A stretch of 64,000 bases of DNA from positions 4,277,531 to 4,341,530 of the forward strand of contig FO203512.1 of assembly GCA_000967895.1 (NCBI GenBank), in the 5' to 3' direction. This document shows positions 1 through 9,308 of this stretch, in pieces. Every line of letters begins with the position of its first letter. Positions within the stretch are counted from its first letter, which is position 1. Origin of the DNA: Oleispira antarctica RB-8 (GTDB lineage: Bacteria; Pseudomonadota; Gammaproteobacteria; Pseudomonadales; Oceanobacteraceae). The notes beneath the pieces were generated by a model. That model was given only the letters and a program-made list of their open reading frames with translations. It did no database searches and was not told the DNA's origin. Both the position numbers and the translations under genes were made by a program.

Positions 1-245
1 CGAATGTCTTGCTTAGCATCTGTTTTACCCTTTGAGTTCTCAGAAACGTCTATTCGTGAATAGATGTAAGTCCCAAGTTCATTTAGCAGCTCTAGCTTCA
101 CTTCCTGCATAGCCATTTGGCGCGCTGATATCTTGCTGTCAGCTTCGCCAGCAATATAGGTGTAATCGCGAACGAATTCTTTTGTATCGGCCCAAGTACT
201 GAGTGTAGATATAAGCAATATGATCAGTAAAGACAAGCGGCTCAT
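1..245 (-). CDS. Partial secreted hypothetical protein (N-terminal part)
   Basis: The minus-strand frame is open from an ATG at 243-245 to the left edge, so only the first 81 residues are visible. It begins with a signal peptide (MSRLSLLIILLISTLSTWA) followed by the mature start DTKEFVRDYTYIAGEADSK. The segment YIAGEADSKISARQMAMQEV resembles a family of periplasmic hypotheticals whose N-terminus reads as a tyrosine-rich, AGEADSK-type motif followed by an amphipathic helix; I do not know a function. The gene lies on the island side of the tRNA fragment at 7146-7193, so it may be island cargo. The reading frame is sure; the role is unknown. Confidence 0.7.
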   Translation of the reverse strand, partial: MSRLSLLIILLISTLSTWADTKEFVRDYTYIAGEADSKISARQMAMQEVKLELLNELGTYIYSRIDVSENSKGKTDAKQDI

Positions 246-579: not shown

Positions 580-1572
580 TTAGTAAACGAAAGATTCTTG
601 GCCAGTTGGCGCTGTGCTCAACCCTAAAATTTTTCCTTTTGTGAAATCATTAATGTACTCACCATTAAATATTTTTTGATATGTCCTAACCGTCAAATAG
701 CATTTTTTTCTAGATTTTGCGATATCGCAAATAGCATCGAAATGCTCTTCATCATACTGACATATCATATTACTGCTTTTATTTGTCGGATCTATAACAA
801 CTGTAGGAGCGTTCAGTCTATATGATATATTAATGATAAAAGCTTCAACCTGAAGAGCTTCTAACTCATCATTTTCGAACGATTTTAGAGGTTTAGCTTT
901 TTGAATATTAACGACATCTTTTTTACCGTTTATTTCGTAGGCTAGAGAAACGTCCGTGTTTGCTTTTCTCAAAAAAGATACTGCATGCTCCATAAATTTT
1001 TGCTGTTCGGGTGAAGATACGACTAAATATTTTTGATATTTTTCTTTAAGGCCAGGTGTTTTTATCTCATCTATATTGAAAACTTTCACTTCGTCAGGTT
1101 CATTTTCTGCAATAACTGCAAATTTGTTGATATTATCTAGTGCTTCCGCAGCAAAGTTTCGTATTTCGCCTATAAAATCGTCAGAAAAAAGATCCGATAA
1201 TTTATGCGGATAAGATAATTTTAATGAAACATAAACACTGCCCGTCTGAAAATCAGAAGTATCCTTATCCAACAAGCCATATGTATTTTTGTTAATACAA
1301 GCACCGGTGGGAAGTTGAGGTTTTAAATAACTGCTTAATATATTAAACAAACCGTCTACTGCCTTAAGTTGAGCTGCCGATTTTTTATTCTCTTTCCACT
1401 CAATTGATTTGTCTTCATCTTTATAAAAAGTTTCATAAGTTTCATAAATAGGTACTTCAATTATATTTATTTCTACTAACTCAGATGATTCGCTGCGTCC
1501 TGCCAAGTCGCTATCATCTCTAGATTTCAATTGCTTATTTAACTGTTTTTTAAACTCTTTATTAGTAGTCAT
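580..1572 (-). CDS. Hypothetical protein, third gene of a recombinase trio (possible GmtX)
   Basis: This 330-residue protein has no signal peptide or membrane segment. It opens with a charged, Lys/Asp/Glu-rich stretch (residues 1-60); the rest is mixed alpha/beta with no motif I recognise. It follows the 1238-residue recombinase gene on the same strand after a gap of 104 bases and may share its transcript. Two recombinase-like genes followed by a domain-less gene is the layout reported for Gamma-Mobile-Trio islands, where the third protein is GmtX. I did not recognise a GmtX sequence signature, so the link rests on position only. It could instead be ordinary cargo. Confidence 0.6.
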   Translation of the reverse strand: MTTNKEFKKQLNKQLKSRDDSDLAGRSESSELVEINIIEVPIYETYETFYKDEDKSIEWKENKKSAAQLKAVDGLFNILSSYLKPQLPTGACINKNTYGLLDKDTSDFQTGSVYVSLKLSYPHKLSDLFSDDFIGEIRNFAAEALDNINKFAVIAENEPDEVKVFNIDEIKTPGLKEKYQKYLVVSSPEQQKFMEHAVSFLRKANTDVSLAYEINGKKDVVNIQKAKPLKSFENDELEALQVEAFIINISYRLNAPTVVIDPTNKSSNMICQYDEEHFDAICDIAKSRKKCYLTVRTYQKIFNGEYINDFTKGKILGLSTAPTGQESFVY

Positions 1573-1676
1573 AAGTTGTGTTTTTTCTTATAATCGCAGA
1601 AGATAATAAAAATTTAGCACACACAACATATAGTGTCCAGCTACTAAAAAATACAAAAAAAATACCACATAGGCTA

Positions 1677-4600
1677 TTAGCCTAATTTTAAGCTCAGAGT
1701 AATCGATAATATAAACATTATTCGCTGAAGCATAATTTGAGTATTGATTCGCTTATTCAACCCAAATTTAATTGCCTTTTTACTTTGTTTTCTTAGAGGA
1801 ACCTTTTCAGTAGAAACTAGTTTAATTTCGCCATTTAAGGTTAACTTCAAATCAGAGAAAAAGACTTTATGAATGAGTTTAATAGCTTCAAGCTCAAGAC
1901 TATCACTAACGATATTCACATCACCTTTCAGTGTTCTTTGCCAGATTAAAAAGGCTGTACTTAAGCTGAAAATTTCACTCTCTGGTAGCTCACCCAGTAA
2001 CACATCATAATCTCTAAGCACTGTTTGAATATTTTTATCCTGGAGAATAAAGGCTTTATTGTTTAAAGCAGCCAGTTTCGCTTGCTTCTCTTCTTCGCCT
2101 AAAAATAGCTGGCTTTGATCGTGCCTAATCAGTTGGTAATAGCCAACGCCTGAGGTGCGTTCAACCTGAATAGCTCTGTCTACGATCTCATTAGCCACTT
2201 TAGAATCAATTAACAATTGCTCTGCAATTAGTTTTGATTTCTGTTGCGTAGCACGCAATCTACTTAAGAATACCTCTATCTCTAAACTCGTTAGTATTTC
2301 CTTTGAGTCAGTATCGGATAATATTTTCATTTTAATAGGGCGAGACTTAAGCTTAACTTTCGGCTTAGGGATGGATTTATTTATCTTTAAAAGTATTCCT
2401 CTTGCAGAACGCTGCTTCGCATTGTCATAGCTTATGCCTAGAGCATAAGCATAAGCTTTCATGCTCATAGGCTTAATTTTAGTGTCGTAGTACTGGTACA
2501 AACTTACAGATGTTACGTGGTTGTAATGCTCAATTGTGGTTGAAATAGAGGCATGCCCTAAAGCATGAGAAATGCTCTCAAGTATGTAGCGAGTTTCATG
2601 AGCACCAATAAAGTTTTGCCAGCGACTACTAATAATGGAGCTACTTGCAATCTGATTAGGTACGCCCGATTGGCTTTGTGCGAAGTAGGCATACATTCTA
2701 CTTGCCCAGCTATGGCGAAAGTGATGGAATCGCAGGTTTGAATCGCCCGTAATATACTTTATACAAAGACCTATCTGTAGGGATGTTTGATGCCTACTAA
2801 TTAGTTCTCTAGGATTATTCACAGAAGAGAAAATAGCTGTTTGCTTGTCGAATGATAATCTCTGCTCTGCGTACTGCACAAGGCTAGTAAAACTTTGTCT
2901 CTCTAGCTCTGTAATTTCTTCTAATAAAATAGAGGGGCGAACACCAGACTCGGTTTTTGTCTCTCCAAAAATATTATTTCTTATATTCAATTCAATTTGA
3001 GAACCTTCAATCAAGACGTCCAGTCGCTGTAAGCGAAGTGCCTCACCAAATCTCAAGCCAAATCGATAGCCCAGCATGACCAAAGAAATATATTGGACTC
3101 TTGTATGCCTATCTAACTCTGCCGTATTGTTAATGCCGTTAATAATTGCTAAATATTCGTCTTCACTTACCATATTTGCATCTGCAAAATGGTCTTCAAT
3201 GTTAATATTGGCAATTTTTAGAATTTCAGACCATGATAGTGGCTCGACAGCATACGCTGATTCCAAGAACCAGTGGAATTCACGCAGTCGTCCGGCCAGT
3301 TCATGTCGACGACTTTCGGGAGCCATCTCAATAATGTGTAAATAGAGGCTTTCATATTCATCACTGTCCAAGCAATCGAAACTTTTGTTCAACTCAACTT
3401 GTGCTAAGGAGTTAGCAATAAAAAATGTATATTTTTCTATAGTTGAAATTGCCAACCGTTTTTTAGATCTTGTTCCTTGCTTGCATAAGTAAATTGACCA
3501 AGCAGCGACACTTAACATTTTAGAATGAAACTCACCGGCACCATCAAATTCTTCTTTTATTAATTTAGGTAAGTTGCTTTTAAACTTCGTTGATAAATTC
3601 GCTTTGCCACCTAGCGGTATAGCCTTGGCCTCCTTAAATACTTGTCTTAGCTCTACTATGAACTTTTTATCACGCTTAAAGCTGTACTTGTTATCGGGAA
3701 TAACATTGAGTTCATTGCTTATGTTGCTGTGAAAATCAGCCATGAGTGGAGTGCTATTAATGTCTAACGCTTTACCGCTATGCATTCTTACCCATGACGT
3801 ATAAGGCAAAGAAGTAACATTAAGCTCACCCGAGAGCACCTTTCTCAAATGTCCTGGAGCTTCAATATCAGCAATAGCCTTGGCGGCCTCACTGAGTGTG
3901 TCGAAAGGGTTTTTAACATCCTCAAATCCTATGGCCCCCATAAGTGTACTTAATGTTTTTCTAATCTGTTGAGTCCTATATGTGTCTTGTAAATCCCATT
4001 TATATAGACCCTGTATTAATGCTTGGCATACTTCATCTGGTCGCCAGCGATAAATGGGGGGATTCTCTTTATCCGTTAAAGGAATATCAACATACAAACC
4101 ACCTGTAAGTTGATGAACACCTTCTTTCAAAGCTTGCAGTAATCCCTCAAGCTTTCTTGTATCTGATATGCCAGCAAACAAAGCAGTGGAAATATGAATT
4201 TCTGAAATACGCTGAAGATTTGTTGGCGGGGTCTGACAGCTATCCAGATAGTCAGTGAAGTTTTTACGGATTTTTATCGCCTGCTGATATGCATAGATCG
4301 TATTTTCATGAAATGGCGATTTTTCTACTCTCAAGACTCTAATCGGAGCAATTATTTTAACTATCTCTTTTCCTTTCGGAAAATGAGAAACGTGACGATA
4401 TAAAAGGCGCAAAGCCTGATTTAAATGATCTCCCGGTGTATTTTGAACAAGATAATTTACTAACCCACGAACTTCTTCTACCGTTGTGATATCACCCTGA
4501 TCATTAAGAACTGAGTTTTTTGCATTAATGATATAGCTTTTAAGTTTAACTCTTTTTTGCTTGCCGCTCTTTAAACGATTTTGGCGTCGCGCAGCCTGGC

Positions 4601-5393
4601 CAAACTCTTTGGTGGATTGGGATTCAAGCTGGTTAAGGGATATTTTTTCTTCTGAAAAACCATAAGGTAACCGAACTGGTGATTTTATAGGCTTCCAGCC
4701 CATTTCATTTAGATATTTATTGAGCGCTAATCCAATTTTAGCAAGGATATCTTTAGCTGATTCTGCTGCATTCTCACCAAATTGATGAGCATTTCCAGAA
4801 GCATGACCCAACTGAATCTGGGCATAATCTGCACTTTCAAGCTTTAGTAATTCAGTTGCGGCTGTATGTCGTAAAAAGTTAATGGGAAGACTCCAGCACT
4901 TTGACCATCTTTGTGCCATTAGCTTAGGAGTAATATTTTCTATGTCACCAAGTCTCGTATCTGATAAATAGAAGAACAACGGAATGGCTTCACTATGTGA
5001 GAATAGCTGTCTTATTTTCGTTGGTAGTAGCGTTCCTGCTACTTCATTTTCTAGGTTTGCAGCCAATTTGGGGAGGTAATCTAGATAGTTTTGAATTTGC
5101 TCGCAAGCGATAGCTGGCAGTGCAACCAATCGCCATGCGCGGTTTTCATGTGTCACTTTGTCAGATATAAGGATTAATCCATTCTGGAGATCAATTTGAC
5201 GAATACTTGAAATTGGATCTTTAACCGCTCGATGACCGGTGGCACTAAAAACAAGTGCTAAAGTATAATCAACAAATGCATTATGTCGCTCTATAAGACT
5301 CTCATTATCCATCGCTAGGTTAATGCTTTGAGATAACGTAGTGATTATATTTTTATGGGTTTCTGCAGTAGGGTAATAGTTAGTCAAACTCAT
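1677..5393 (-). CDS. Giant two-module tyrosine recombinase/integrase (possible GmtZ)
   Basis: The protein has 1238 residues, three to four times the usual integrase length. The second module, about residues 740-970, has the full tyrosine-recombinase set: Arg in GLRFGEALRL (near 781), Lys in GETKTESG (near 812), His-x-x-Arg in RFHHFRHSWAS (near 891), His in ALGHAS (near 945) and the nucleophile Tyr in TTIEHYNHV (near 957). An N-terminal module, about residues 30-210, looks like a second catalytic fold: FLRHTAATELL near 174 and QLGHASGNAHQFG near 195. Asn stands where the first His should be, and no nucleophilic Tyr follows, so this copy is probably inactive. About 270 further residues follow the C-terminal catalytic core, including a Lys/Arg-rich stretch. 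The start overlaps the stop of the upstream recombinase-like gene (5390-5393), so the two are translationally coupled. It likely moves the island whose end lies at 7193. An unrelated multi-recombinase element is the main alternative. Confidence 0.85.
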   Translation of the reverse strand: MSLTNYYPTAETHKNIITTLSQSINLAMDNESLIERHNAFVDYTLALVFSATGHRAVKDPISSIRQIDLQNGLILISDKVTHENRAWRLVALPAIACEQIQNYLDYLPKLAANLENEVAGTLLPTKIRQLFSHSEAIPLFFYLSDTRLGDIENITPKLMAQRWSKCWSLPINFLRHTAATELLKLESADYAQIQLGHASGNAHQFGENAAESAKDILAKIGLALNKYLNEMGWKPIKSPVRLPYGFSEEKISLNQLESQSTKEFGQAARRQNRLKSGKQKRVKLKSYIINAKNSVLNDQGDITTVEEVRGLVNYLVQNTPGDHLNQALRLLYRHVSHFPKGKEIVKIIAPIRVLRVEKSPFHENTIYAYQQAIKIRKNFTDYLDSCQTPPTNLQRISEIHISTALFAGISDTRKLEGLLQALKEGVHQLTGGLYVDIPLTDKENPPIYRWRPDEVCQALIQGLYKWDLQDTYRTQQIRKTLSTLMGAIGFEDVKNPFDTLSEAAKAIADIEAPGHLRKVLSGELNVTSLPYTSWVRMHSGKALDINSTPLMADFHSNISNELNVIPDNKYSFKRDKKFIVELRQVFKEAKAIPLGGKANLSTKFKSNLPKLIKEEFDGAGEFHSKMLSVAAWSIYLCKQGTRSKKRLAISTIEKYTFFIANSLAQVELNKSFDCLDSDEYESLYLHIIEMAPESRRHELAGRLREFHWFLESAYAVEPLSWSEILKIANINIEDHFADANMVSEDEYLAIINGINNTAELDRHTRVQYISLVMLGYRFGLRFGEALRLQRLDVLIEGSQIELNIRNNIFGETKTESGVRPSILLEEITELERQSFTSLVQYAEQRLSFDKQTAIFSSVNNPRELISRHQTSLQIGLCIKYITGDSNLRFHHFRHSWASRMYAYFAQSQSGVPNQIASSSIISSRWQNFIGAHETRYILESISHALGHASISTTIEHYNHVTSVSLYQYYDTKIKPMSMKAYAYALGISYDNAKQRSARGILLKINKSIPKPKVKLKSRPIKMKILSDTDSKEILTSLEIEVFLSRLRATQQKSKLIAEQLLIDSKVANEIVDRAIQVERTSGVGYYQLIRHDQSQLFLGEEEKQAKLAALNNKAFILQDKNIQTVLRDYDVLLGELPESEIFSLSTAFLIWQRTLKGDVNIVSDSLELEAIKLIHKVFFSDLKLTLNGEIKLVSTEKVPLRKQSKKAIKFGLNKRINTQIMLQRIMFILSITLSLKLG

Positions 5394-7009
5394 AGCGATA
5401 GCATTCCTTGCACAACATTTTGATAAGCTTGCTCCACTTCAGAAACAGTATGCGCTACATAATAAGTCAGCATCGGCGCGGCTTGGTTATCGCGCCCTGC
5501 CAGATAGTGCGTTATAACTGGATCACGAAATTTCAAAGTTGTTTCTAACGCTAATGCTGCCGTAAGTCTTGATAAAATGATACGTCGGTACTGCCCATCC
5601 TTTCTTAAATCCACCAAAGTTGCATCAATAGCTTTTTTAGCACCTTCCTTGGTATCCGATAATACTTCCCAAAAGTTGTTTTTTGATATCTCTTGTAACC
5701 ATTCGGTGAGGATTTCCGGCAATTCAAAATTAAACTGCGTTGAAACAGACGTTAAACACTTAGTTTGCTGCGGATTAGGTTTAAAAGCGTTTTCTGGCCT
5801 TTGAATTAGCCTTTTATATTGCCCATCTTTTGTAATTACTTGGTCATTATTCAGATTAATATTGAGTAGCTCATCCAGCGTTAGGCCAGTTATGTATAGC
5901 ATGCATACAATACCAGCTCTGTTTCTAACCTTTTTATTGGAAGCGTTTTTAAGCCCCTGGCTTATAAAATCAGTAACTCTATTTTTTTCCAAGTGCGTGA
6001 GGCATGAAGAGTCGTGAGCTACAAGCCTACTATGCCGTCTAATCCAGTAATCTGACTTCATCGCCTTGAGGTCAGTTTTAAACTCCGAATCAGCACCGCT
6101 TAGTGAAACGCCATCATCGTTGGAATCAATATCATCATCAATCAATATACTAATAAGACTGGGGGGTTCGGCAGATTCTGGATTGCCCATATCAATAGCA
6201 AGCATTTCAATTTGATTTGAACCGAAACCTGATAAAAGAGGGAATTTCACCCTGAGATCAGGTAGCTGCTGAACAGGTGCTGAGCGTGGTGCACTCCCAT
6301 TCTTTTCTATTAGTTTATATAAACTGGATATAATTCTGTGTTCTGAGGAAGAGTTGGCATCATATTGTTGTTGAACCTTGGCCTTTAATTCGCCGAAGTA
6401 AGCACCGAAATCATCTCCCAACTCAGGTAGCTCTTTAAGTACCTCATTTTCAGAAAATCGACCTATAGCAACCCTCAGCTCATTTGCATAATGATCCAAC
6501 CCAACAGTGTCAGGGGGCTGATTAATGAGCGTGAACAAGAATAGAGAATGAATGCCATTTATTTGTTTTTTGTATCTCGAGGGCTCTTGTAGTAGAAATG
6601 CAGTGATGGGGTATTGTTGAATATTACCTTGCAAAGGGTTGCTCTGAGAGCTAGTTCTATGCCATTTTCGCTGTTGCTTTAAGCTAATTTTTGCAGCATT
6701 AAGTGCAGTCAACCAGTTAGGTTTATTGGTGAATTCAGAGAGGCTTTCTAGGTGGGTTAATAGAAATTCAATTATGTTAACAGTAGCAGGAAAAGCACCA
6801 TCAATTTTCAAGCGTCTTTCTATCTCTGACATATCCAGAACTAGATCGTGCTTGTCACGCAGCAGCCTACTCAGAGCACCTAGCTGTGATTCATCACCTG
6901 TCACTATTAAATCTCTCGTCTTTAAAATACAATAGAGCTCCCCCGCATGCCCTGATATATCTCTCAGGAATACGTGACCAGCTAGTGACAATCTAACAGA
7001 AACAACCAA
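5390..7009 (-). CDS. Degenerate tyrosine-recombinase-like protein (possible GmtY)
   Basis: This 539-residue protein is first in the leftward trio. Residues about 340-535 follow the catalytic-domain layout of tyrosine recombinases: YITGLTLDELLNINLNND (near 372) matches the TGLRxxEL box but with Thr for the catalytic Arg. RRIILSRLTAALAL stands where HxxRHTxAT would be. HYLAGRDNQAAPMLTYYVAH (near 500-520) matches the LGHxxxxxTxxYxH box and keeps tyrosines. Several catalytic positions are therefore changed, and it may act as a DNA-binding or architectural partner of the large recombinase. Its stop overlaps the next start by four bases. The AT-rich stretch 7010-7145 upstream should hold its promoter and, from 7146, the attachment site. 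I infer GmtY-like status from layout, not from a search. Confidence 0.75.
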   Translation of the reverse strand: MVVSVRLSLAGHVFLRDISGHAGELYCILKTRDLIVTGDESQLGALSRLLRDKHDLVLDMSEIERRLKIDGAFPATVNIIEFLLTHLESLSEFTNKPNWLTALNAAKISLKQQRKWHRTSSQSNPLQGNIQQYPITAFLLQEPSRYKKQINGIHSLFLFTLINQPPDTVGLDHYANELRVAIGRFSENEVLKELPELGDDFGAYFGELKAKVQQQYDANSSSEHRIISSLYKLIEKNGSAPRSAPVQQLPDLRVKFPLLSGFGSNQIEMLAIDMGNPESAEPPSLISILIDDDIDSNDDGVSLSGADSEFKTDLKAMKSDYWIRRHSRLVAHDSSCLTHLEKNRVTDFISQGLKNASNKKVRNRAGIVCMLYITGLTLDELLNINLNNDQVITKDGQYKRLIQRPENAFKPNPQQTKCLTSVSTQFNFELPEILTEWLQEISKNNFWEVLSDTKEGAKKAIDATLVDLRKDGQYRRIILSRLTAALALETTLKFRDPVITHYLAGRDNQAAPMLTYYVAHTVSEVEQAYQNVVQGMLSL

Positions 7010-7145
7010 AGTGTGACAATATTAAATAATCAAAAATGTCACTATTCGATCTTAATAAAATCAATACTTACGATAGTTAAAGATACCTAGTGTTAATTAA
7101 GGTAGATTTATTATAAATAAAATACATCAATATAAATCATTATTA
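7010..7145. promoter_or_regulatory. AT-rich promoter/att region of the recombinase operon
   Basis: This strongly AT-rich 136-base stretch sits between the first recombinase gene, which reads left, and the tRNA fragment. It should hold the operon promoter and recombinase arm-type sites, but I could not pick out one convincing -35/-10 pair. Confidence 0.4.
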
Positions 7146-7193
7146 TCGGCCTCCGAAGCCGAATCGCAAGTTCGATTCTTGCAGGGCGGGCCA
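7146..7193 (+). other. tRNA-Arg(CCG) 3' fragment, putative attachment site
   Basis: The segment folds as the 3' part of a tRNA. A 5-bp anticodon stem (TCGGC/GCCGA) encloses the 7-base loop CTCCGAA, giving anticodon CCG. A 5-bp T stem (GCAAG/CTTGC) encloses TTCGATT. The acceptor strand AGGGCGG, a discriminator G and an encoded CCA end at 7193. The D arm and 5' acceptor strand are missing: sequence to the left is plain AT-rich DNA. A 3' tRNA fragment beside recombinase genes is the standard scar of tyrosine-recombinase integration. Its orientation puts the element to the left and the native chromosome to the right. The apparent variable loop is only 3 bases, so the fragment may have drifted. 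Confidence 0.75.
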
Positions 7194-7212: not shown

Positions 7213-7337
7213 ACCTGCTCTGCAGGTCGTGGCTTTAGCCCGACAAATGCGCTTAATGAAACACCCATTGGCCTAAAGACCAATCCACATTTACACTCCA
7301 GATTATCTATCTTGTGTGGGTCGTCCTTCAGGGCGAC
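7213..7337. repeat. Cluster of REP-like palindromes
   Basis: Four short inverted repeats lie side by side: ACCTGC-tct-GCAGGT (7213-7227), GTCG-t-GGCTTTAGCC-CGAC (7226-7244), TTGG-cctaaaga-CCAA (7268-7283) and GTCGTCC-ttca-GGGCGAC (7320-7337). The GTCG...CGAC units match the palindrome at 54373-54421 closely, so this is a dispersed family. The only open frame across it (7143-7352, minus) runs through both the tRNA fragment and the palindromes and is not a gene. Confidence 0.6.
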
Positions 7338-7352
7338 AATGCACGATAGCAA

Positions 7353-9308
7353 TCACAGCGATGTCGTATCAAAATCCTTTTCTTTTATCTCACCCTCTTC
7401 AACCGTTATCGAAAAAGGCCCGTAAGATATTCCTGCTGAATTATAAAAAAACATATCGTATAGCCCTGCTTCATTAAATTTAGTGGGGTCTGGTGAATCC
7501 CTACCATCAACTCCGAAATAGCTGGTATTAATACTCCACCGACCTTGCCCAACGACACTTTGCTCTACGATGCCTTCTTCAAGCAATACGTCAGTTCCGC
7601 CAGCAACAAAGATTTTCACTGCATTAAGATCATCACCTATAACACGGCCGGTACTGACATGATCAAAACTTGATAGATCACACTCAACGGTATCGCCAAG
7701 GCTTAAACCTTGATTAGCGAATGTTGCTAAGAATTCGATGCTGAAAATTTCAGAAAAATCTGTTCTATAAATAAACCAAGAAACGCCGTCGACTTTAGTC
7801 ACTAAAGGTCTGTCAGCATACCCATCTAAGTCACGACTATTATTAAGGTGCCAGGTTATACCATCCCATCCTCCGAGAAATCCGCTATTCTTATCACGAA
7901 ACACTGTTTCACCTAACGCTGCTGGGTATGCAAAAATACCAAACTCCGGCTCTGTTAAAGTGAGCTTAATGATTAGATCGGTTAGCGAACTAGACTCCTC
8001 CTCAAGTGCGAGAACTTCAGACGCAAGACCAATGCTTTCCAATCTTCCGCCATAGCGTGGCAAGGCTGAAAATGTACATTGCCCTACGGTATCGGGGATT
8101 GTGGTGGGTGGCATAGGTTCTTCGACTTCAGATTCTTCTTCAGTCTCTTCTTCAAGCAGAATTCTAAGATTTTGACTCTCTTCAAATAAAATACCTGTCA
8201 TGTCACAAGAAACTTCATCCCCAATGGCTAAGCCTGGATTCGCAAATCGTACGGCATATTTTGTTTCACCCAGTCCTGGAAAGTCAGTTCGATAGACATA
8301 CCATTTAGTTTCACCAATCTCTGTAATAATAGGTGTGGTTGCATTCATTTCCTCAGACGTAGCCCCATCGTAAGGCGTCCACGTTGCACCATGCCAACCA
8401 CCACGAGCATTAATAAAATTACGATCAAAAAAATTCGCCTTACCCAAAGCCGCAGGGTAAGCAAAGAAACCGTACTCATTTTCTGCCAGTGTTAATTCAA
8501 AATCTTGTCCACCAGTATGGAGAAACGTCTGCGACAGTTTTTCTCTGGTTAATATCGTCAAATCGATGCCACCATAAACTGGCAGGCCATTCATTGTGCA
8601 TATTTCGTTATTATTATTGATGCTGGGCGGGGGTAATATTTCTGCTGCCGGAGGGCTGTATTCTTGTGCGTTAGTTAGATCAAAGACGAAAGTACTTTCA
8701 TCAGCTTGCTTTAAACCATCAGTCTCGCAAGGAGAAGAAGCCCCGATGGCTTGGCCTGGGTTCGTATAACTGACTTTTGAAAGCAACCGACCGCCGCCTG
8801 GATAATCCGTTCTATATACGAACCAGTGAGTATTATCTTTAACAATCACTACGGGTTCATTTCGGGTAGCCGTTGAAGTCTCGTCGTCCGGCTCCCAAGC
8901 AGCACCTCCCCAGGCTCCGCCAAAAAAAGTGGCCTCGCCTAATGCTGCAGGAAACATGAAAAAACCATACTCGTTATCTGCCAGTATTAGTTCAAATTCT
9001 TGGTTATCGGTATTGTCTAGCGTGTACTCTAAAGCTAATGAGGCACTTGGATAAGTGGCGGAACCATAATAAGGAGTATCCGTTACTAGGCAATTCTCGC
9101 TTATATTTTGGTCTGTTTCTTCTTCAATATCTGCTTCTTCAGTATCTGTTTCTGTCTCCTCTGTTGTAGTGCTCTCACCCTCTAAGATCACAACATTCTC
9201 ATCTGAGGAGTCTTGGCCTACGCAGCCTGAAAATAACAAAGACATACTGCATAACAGTAAAGGTACTGATTTATTAAACAACATAGAGGTTTGAACCTTA
9301 GATTTCAT
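7353..9308 (-). CDS. Acidic lipoprotein with three repeated domains
   Basis: This 651-residue protein has a lipoprotein signal ending in SLLFSGC, then a Glu/Asp/Thr-rich linker (about 35-68). Three homologous units of about 120 residues follow, near 72-195, 235-375 and 410-545. Each starts and ends with Cys and contains a block like EYGFFAYPAALGKANF, then GGW.GA.W, then WYVYRTDFPG, then a Gly-rich end. Linkers between units are acidic or proline-rich. A shorter C-terminal segment is separate. The conserved blocks suggest a small beta-sandwich used repeatedly for binding or adhesion at the cell surface, but I cannot name the family. The start at 9308 has no good ribosome site; an in-frame ATG at 9282-9284 gives a more compact signal peptide. 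It is the first gene to the right of the att scar. Confidence 0.75.
   Translation of the reverse strand: MKSKVQTSMLFNKSVPLLLCSMSLLFSGCVGQDSSDENVVILEGESTTTEETETDTEEADIEEETDQNISENCLVTDTPYYGSATYPSASLALEYTLDNTDNQEFELILADNEYGFFMFPAALGEATFFGGAWGGAAWEPDDETSTATRNEPVVIVKDNTHWFVYRTDYPGGGRLLSKVSYTNPGQAIGASSPCETDGLKQADESTFVFDLTNAQEYSPPAAEILPPPSINNNNEICTMNGLPVYGGIDLTILTREKLSQTFLHTGGQDFELTLAENEYGFFAYPAALGKANFFDRNFINARGGWHGATWTPYDGATSEEMNATTPIITEIGETKWYVYRTDFPGLGETKYAVRFANPGLAIGDEVSCDMTGILFEESQNLRILLEEETEEESEVEEPMPPTTIPDTVGQCTFSALPRYGGRLESIGLASEVLALEEESSSLTDLIIKLTLTEPEFGIFAYPAALGETVFRDKNSGFLGGWDGITWHLNNSRDLDGYADRPLVTKVDGVSWFIYRTDFSEIFSIEFLATFANQGLSLGDTVECDLSSFDHVSTGRVIGDDLNAVKIFVAGGTDVLLEEGIVEQSVVGQGRWSINTSYFGVDGRDSPDPTKFNEAGLYDMFFYNSAGISYGPFSITVEEGEIKEKDFDTTSL

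Follow-up and report, generated by a model that had tools for sequence, protein, structure and literature searches.

Several mobile elements (RIT, GInt, SE, GMT and Tn554) pose a common, unsolved question: why does one element need several tyrosine recombinases? The same question is raised by three leftward genes, hereafter the trio, which lie beside a tRNA-Arg fragment in Oleispira antarctica RB-8, whose genome is a single contig of 4.41 Mb. The window analysed was a stretch of 64,000 nucleotides (G000:C1:4277531-4341530; FO203512.1), and coordinates given without a contig or locus name refer to it. On balance we are inclined to believe that the locus is the attR end of a dual-recombinase defence island of ~24 kb, the second in a tandem pair at tRNA-Arg(CCG), and that the trio is the second recombination module of this island.

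The right end of an island in tRNA-Arg(CCG)

The first-pass annotation had placed here the right end of a tRNA-Arg(CCG) island, with the element to the left. The tRNA-Arg(CCG) 3' half that it reported was found on the forward strand at 7146-7193: it extends from the anticodon stem-loop through CCA, lacks the 5' half, is directed away from the trio, and has a variable loop that is shorter by 2 nt than that of a sister species' tRNA. ARAGORN detected zero tRNAs in the 64-kb window. The intact tRNA-Arg(CCG) with a matching 3' end, which the annotation had proposed to look for to the left, lies on the same strand at C1:4213767-4213843, 70.9 kb away, and a third, truncated copy consisting of the T-arm/acceptor part only (C1:4260352-4260384) is located between the two. 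The fragment in the window is a direct repeat of both the intact and the truncated copies, i.e. the right attachment repeat (attR), and with these repeats and the intact tRNA the proposed island end was confirmed.

Since a truncated tRNA copy stands between the intact tRNA and attR, the region consists of two tandem islands, a first one with metal resistance (46.5 kb) and the ~24-kb defence island; the trio stands at the right end of the latter. Since the anticodon part is missing from the middle repeat at 4260352, the defence island of O. antarctica may be impaired in its own excision, a point against the dual-recombinase reading. The trio and the tRNA fragment are separated by an AT-rich noncoding stretch (7010..7145, no strand assigned) with TGTCAC/GTGACA repeats, which we propose to be the island-side arm of attR; the distance between the attR fragment and the first trio gene is about 137 bp.

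The same uvrD-like and 139-aa genes adjoin tRNA-Arg(CCG) in three further species of the genus. The bases past the tRNA in the genome G314 resemble those past position 7193, hence the 7193 side is the original chromosomal flank. In a sister species (G312) the island at the tRNA begins with a homologous integrase, and an AAA_13-like gene is present as in O. antarctica. Two tRNA-Arg 5' halves (~4213525-4213680; L005 8525-8680), each ending after the anticodon stem, lie shortly before the intact tRNA-Arg(CCG) and may be scars left by earlier integration or excision. Beyond attR an intergenic palindrome, GTCGTGGCTTTAGCCCGAC, occupies 7226-7244, and short stretches nearby (7221-7340) recur at other places in the genome and in sister species; the gene at 7353-9308, immediately outside the island, encodes a lipoprotein-like protein of 651 aa, which contains three internal repeats.

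The metal-resistance segment encodes RND pumps, a P-type ATPase and cation diffusion, names that were read directly off the sequence. The defence island comprises an HTH gene, a small putative xis, the gene of a 393-aa integrase, SIR2, a UvrD-type helicase, a type I RM system (HsdR, S and M), a PrrC-like AAA_13/PDC-S06 protein and a Sel1-repeat protein, followed by the trio. The first-pass annotation, which had expected variable cargo including defence to the left of the trio, was right in this respect: type I RM, SIR2 and a PrrC-like ATPase are present. The Sel1-repeat gene (446 aa), the trio's nearest left-hand neighbour in the island, is clipped at the window edge; its start lies at 3..245 on the minus strand. 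The 393-aa integrase (Arm-DNA-bind_2 and Phage_integrase) is at the left island end, beside the tRNA 3' repeat, thus at the end opposite to the trio and outside the view of the first-pass annotation.

An intact tRNA, a direct 3' repeat and an integrase beside the tRNA-side repeat identify the element as a tRNA-integrated island with a tyrosine integrase. It shares with tRNA islands of the arm-type integrase class the integrase beside the tRNA, the 3' repeats and the defence cargo, but differs from them in having, at the opposite end, a further recombinase with three modules. The conventional integrase could by itself account for the tRNA integration, and we count this against the dual-recombinase reading.

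Three recombinase modules in two overlapping genes

The gene arrangement given by the first-pass annotation was reproduced: three ORFs on the minus strand encode proteins of 330 aa (580..1572), 1238 aa (1677..5393) and, with a TTG start, 539 aa (5390..7009), the latter two genes sharing 4 bases (5390-5393). Judged from their sequences, the 539- and 1238-aa proteins constitute one system of three modules. On the basis of ORFs and module comparison, M1 was assigned to the 539-aa protein, M2 and M3 to the 1238-aa protein. M3 (residues 640-970; 2484..3476, minus strand) is the only module with the complete tyrosine recombinase set R-K-H-R-H-Y (R781, K813, H890, R893, H947, Y957), which was conserved in 50/50 systems. 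In M2 (residues 1-290; 4524..5393, minus strand) R55, K79, N172, R175 and H197 were equally invariant (50/50), N172 occupying the usual place of a His, and the position of the catalytic Tyr was unconserved, with Tyr in 22/50 systems and Asn in O. antarctica. M1 is a degenerate recombinase-like module, which has Tyr517 in all 50 systems and lacks the conserved Arg set.

Integrase profiles matched M2 (E 2e-4) and M3 (E 1e-6) and did not match M1. Of the earlier claim that both overlapping genes are tyrosine-recombinase-like, the part concerning the 1238-aa protein stands, with M3 complete, and the part concerning the 539-aa protein, for which the database search returned no match, holds only indirectly. 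The predicted model of a relative's A protein, which corresponds to M1-M2 (pLDDT 79), had Tn1549 Int, XerH and XerA as top PDB matches. A fold search with the predicted model of the 539-aa protein alone gave nothing below E=0.001, an integrase and Cre appearing only with weak scores, so that a recombinase fold of the 539-aa protein is no more than suggested.

The invariant Tyr of M1 and the R-K-N-R-H set of M2 with its dispensable Tyr fit the hypothesis that a composite active site is formed by the Tyr from M1 and the pocket from M2. A split active site, assembled in trans, is known from yeast Flp. The way in which the catalytic residues are distributed points to a division of labour among the modules: M3 would cut DNA, and M1 and M2 would serve as its structural or composite catalytic partner. 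We are doubtful about the stronger proposition that there is a widespread class of dual-recombinase islands in which the M1 Tyr complements the M2 R-K-N-R-H pocket in trans, similarly to Flp, and M3 provides a second, complete active site.

Downstream of the recombinase genes lies the accessory gene for the 330-aa protein. Its family was not recognisable: domain search recognised no domain, and no homologue was detectable; in close relatives, too, the corresponding slot is filled by non-similar genes of about 300-320 aa. A conserved third gene was therefore rejected. A phage origin of the trio was also dismissed on the ground that the 1238-aa protein had no match in 50,697 phage records.

The position of the trio among type I RM, SIR2 and PDC-S06 genes may suggest that it is itself an island-borne defence or exclusion system acting, for example, on the attachment sites of competing elements. 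We find this improbable, since PADLOC matched none of the 539-, 1238- and 330-aa proteins, the trio stands beside the attachment site and not amid the cargo, and a complete recombinase active site suggests recombination. A defence system as defined by PADLOC was thus discarded.

Relatives and gene architectures

Relatives of the 1238-aa protein were found in 25 of 294 genomes of the order. A further set of 66 trio loci was collected from GTDB genomes, a few of which are the same genomes as in the 294-genome sample. Most relatives consist of two genes, A with ~730-950 aa and B with ~1000-1150 aa; some are single fused proteins of 1740-1920 aa. The 539|1238 split was also seen in Pseudohalioglobus, Marinospirillum and a gammaproteobacterial MAG. 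The two lengths add up to 1777 aa, equal to the fusion length, the 539-aa protein representing the N-terminal part of A and the 1238-aa protein the remainder of A plus B. In one locus (L061; G222:C4:113000-121000) the trio is unfused: genes for proteins of 420, 355 and 762 aa are followed by a 277-aa gene, and the proteins pair one-to-one with M1, M2 and M3 (E 1e-7, 2e-11 and 5e-15, respectively). This layout is possibly near the ancestral arrangement. A search of the available literature found no description of the family, which adds to the multi-recombinase elements a broadly distributed case whose modules stand apart, in pairs or fused into a single protein.

The partner integrase and the attachment ends of relatives

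In 26 of the 66 loci, for which the flanks were fetched, an integrase ~50% identical to the 393-aa integrase of the island was found near the trio, often with the same small neighbours, whereas the trio proteins at those loci were ~25% identical. Among the 294 genomes the trio and the integrase subfamily occurred together in 22, the trio alone in 3, the integrase alone in 6 and neither in 263 (Fisher p=1e-24); counted by genus the numbers were 13/1/3/102 (p=1e-13). It must be noted that both tests ignore shared ancestry. Pairs located on the same contig (n=18) were 1-55 kb apart (minimum 1.1 kb) and were convergent in 11/18, an orientation that puts the trio and the integrase at the outer ends of the island. 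The co-occurrence is strong, and the pairing of the trio with one integrase subfamily is near-obligate, although the genomes in which only one of the two was detected count against the dual-recombinase reading. Such a near-constant partner makes the question of multiple recombinases accessible to ordinary genetics.

In our favoured reading, in which the trio is the second recombination module of the island family, the 393-aa integrase at the left end would target the tRNA, the trio would act at the trio-proximal end, and both may contribute to integration, excision or circularisation. The attachment ends of relatives bear on this arrangement. A scan of the 900 bp preceding the trio revealed antisense tRNA 3' ends (T arm and CCA) in six of 50 loci, 119-850 bp from the trio (7 motifs vs 0.13 expected); they were tRNA-Met-like or tRNA-Arg-like, and four were 119-240 bp upstream, as in O. 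antarctica. G240 contains a complete tRNA-Met island with repeats 52.8 kb apart, the trio at one end and the integrase at the other. In G273 tRNA-Met direct repeats enclose a trio (5112-11540 of L051, C40:151000-170000) that is interrupted by IS21 (istA/istB). Two islands with flanking tRNA-Arg-like repeats count against a trio acting at the end: in G122 the trio is 4.7 kb from attR, and in G218 it is in the middle of a 58.7-kb region. The trio can be used as a marker for the ends of tRNA islands rich in defence and metal-resistance genes; its proteins are currently annotated as hypothetical protein or integrase.

Related modules on Acinetobacter plasmids

X-A-B modules akin to the trio are found on many plasmids of Acinetobacter. 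In four different flanks they have a sharply defined left end (AATAAC..AAAAAGTGGAAG), and the DNA after B is variable, which supports the view that the trio is the fixed end of a mobile segment. In L154 (plasmid pACI-3569, 15126-26187) the left end of one trio lies inside the B gene of another, near the catalytic region, and in L147 the noncoding trio left end is present twice, at 573-753 and 1675-1850, 1.1 kb apart. A candidate for a clean empty site on an A. soli plasmid was rejected because of an IS66-related insertion at the junction.

The precise left end common to several plasmid contexts, one of them within another trio, and the variable DNA behind B can also be taken to mean that the trio serves as recombinase to a mobile element of its own, GInt- or SE-like, which repeatedly inserts at tRNA 3' ends or at the attachment sites of existing islands; the integrase pairing would then come from common target sites and not from cooperation. 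In GInts, likewise, the recombinase genes at one end are described as fixed and the cargo as variable (PMC5385486). In the Acinetobacter plasmid trio the nearby arm-type integrase is a different one, with 20% identity to that of the island, which counts against our favoured reading. However, the other terminus of a trio-only element could not be located, the pairing is near-obligate and with one specific integrase subfamily, and the tRNA repeats in G240 and O. antarctica enclose the integrase and the trio together. We regard the separate element as possible, and rather unlikely.

Comparison with other multi-recombinase systems

The catalytic patterns of RIT, GInt and SE differ from that of the trio, and no partner integrase has been described for them (PMC3414803, PMC5385486, PMC10214605). 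Recombinase-in-trio (RIT) elements, like the trio, have three overlapping recombinase modules in a fixed order, but they are about 3.5 kb long and consist of three separate, putatively active recombinases, all with the catalytic motif, and no cargo (PMC3414803), whereas here two genes span 5.3 kb and there is one complete active site.

GInt elements (ginABCD) resemble the trio more closely, having three recombinase modules and an accessory gene at an island end, followed by variable cargo, and direct-repeat ends. In GInt the motifs of GinA and GinB are complete and GinC lacks the first Arg, and the reported insertion sites lie in genes for ABC transporters, ssb and ribonucleotide reductase instead of tRNA genes (PMC5385486). 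According to this published description the trio is distinct: instead of two complete R-H-R-H-Y recombinases it has M3 alone, and it has a tRNA site and a partner integrase.

The gene order of strand-biased circularizing integrative elements (SE; intA-tfp-intB-srap), which have imperfect inverted repeats at their two ends and a 6-bp footprint, is also similar: a smaller recombinase, a recombinase-fold protein without catalytic residues, a large recombinase with a long N-terminus and an accessory gene. IntA is catalytically complete with R-H-R-Y, whereas Tfp lacks these residues and its orthologues are at least 550 aa long (PMC10214605). In the trio M1 keeps only the Tyr, without the conserved Arg set, and M2, which keeps R-K-N-R-H, is ~290 aa. 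The unfused locus L061 was rejected as an SE for the same reason of size, its second gene encoding 355 aa.

The first-pass annotation had proposed a Gamma-Mobile-Trio (GMT) island from the size and order of the genes. GMT islands are similar in being mobile, in carrying defence cargo and in having three genes, with tyrosine recombinase(s), in roughly similar order. The profile check suggested for the three proteins gave no match to any GMT model. The NCBIfam GmtY model (NF040693) had 0 matches in the whole O. antarctica genome, whereas the positive control, G240 of the same family, scored 534 bits; the presumed GmtX model NF040692, which is recombination-associated and has 207 positions, had no match in the O. 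antarctica genome, and no control matched it either. The GMT proteins of G240 showed neither BLAST similarity nor a significant profile match to the 539-, 1238- and 330-aa proteins, and the 895-aa gene beside GmtY, taken as GmtZ by position, was likewise dissimilar to the three. The sizes in the G240 GMT trio are 488/895/222 aa vs 539/1238/330; the apparent fit in size was coincidental. On the missing GmtY, the silent GMT models and the dissimilar control proteins we rejected GMT membership, and an island with divergent GmtY/Z/X seems to us extremely improbable. G240 has a true GMT locus (L059, C1:2084500-2104000) as well as its trio island, hence the two systems coexist in one genome.
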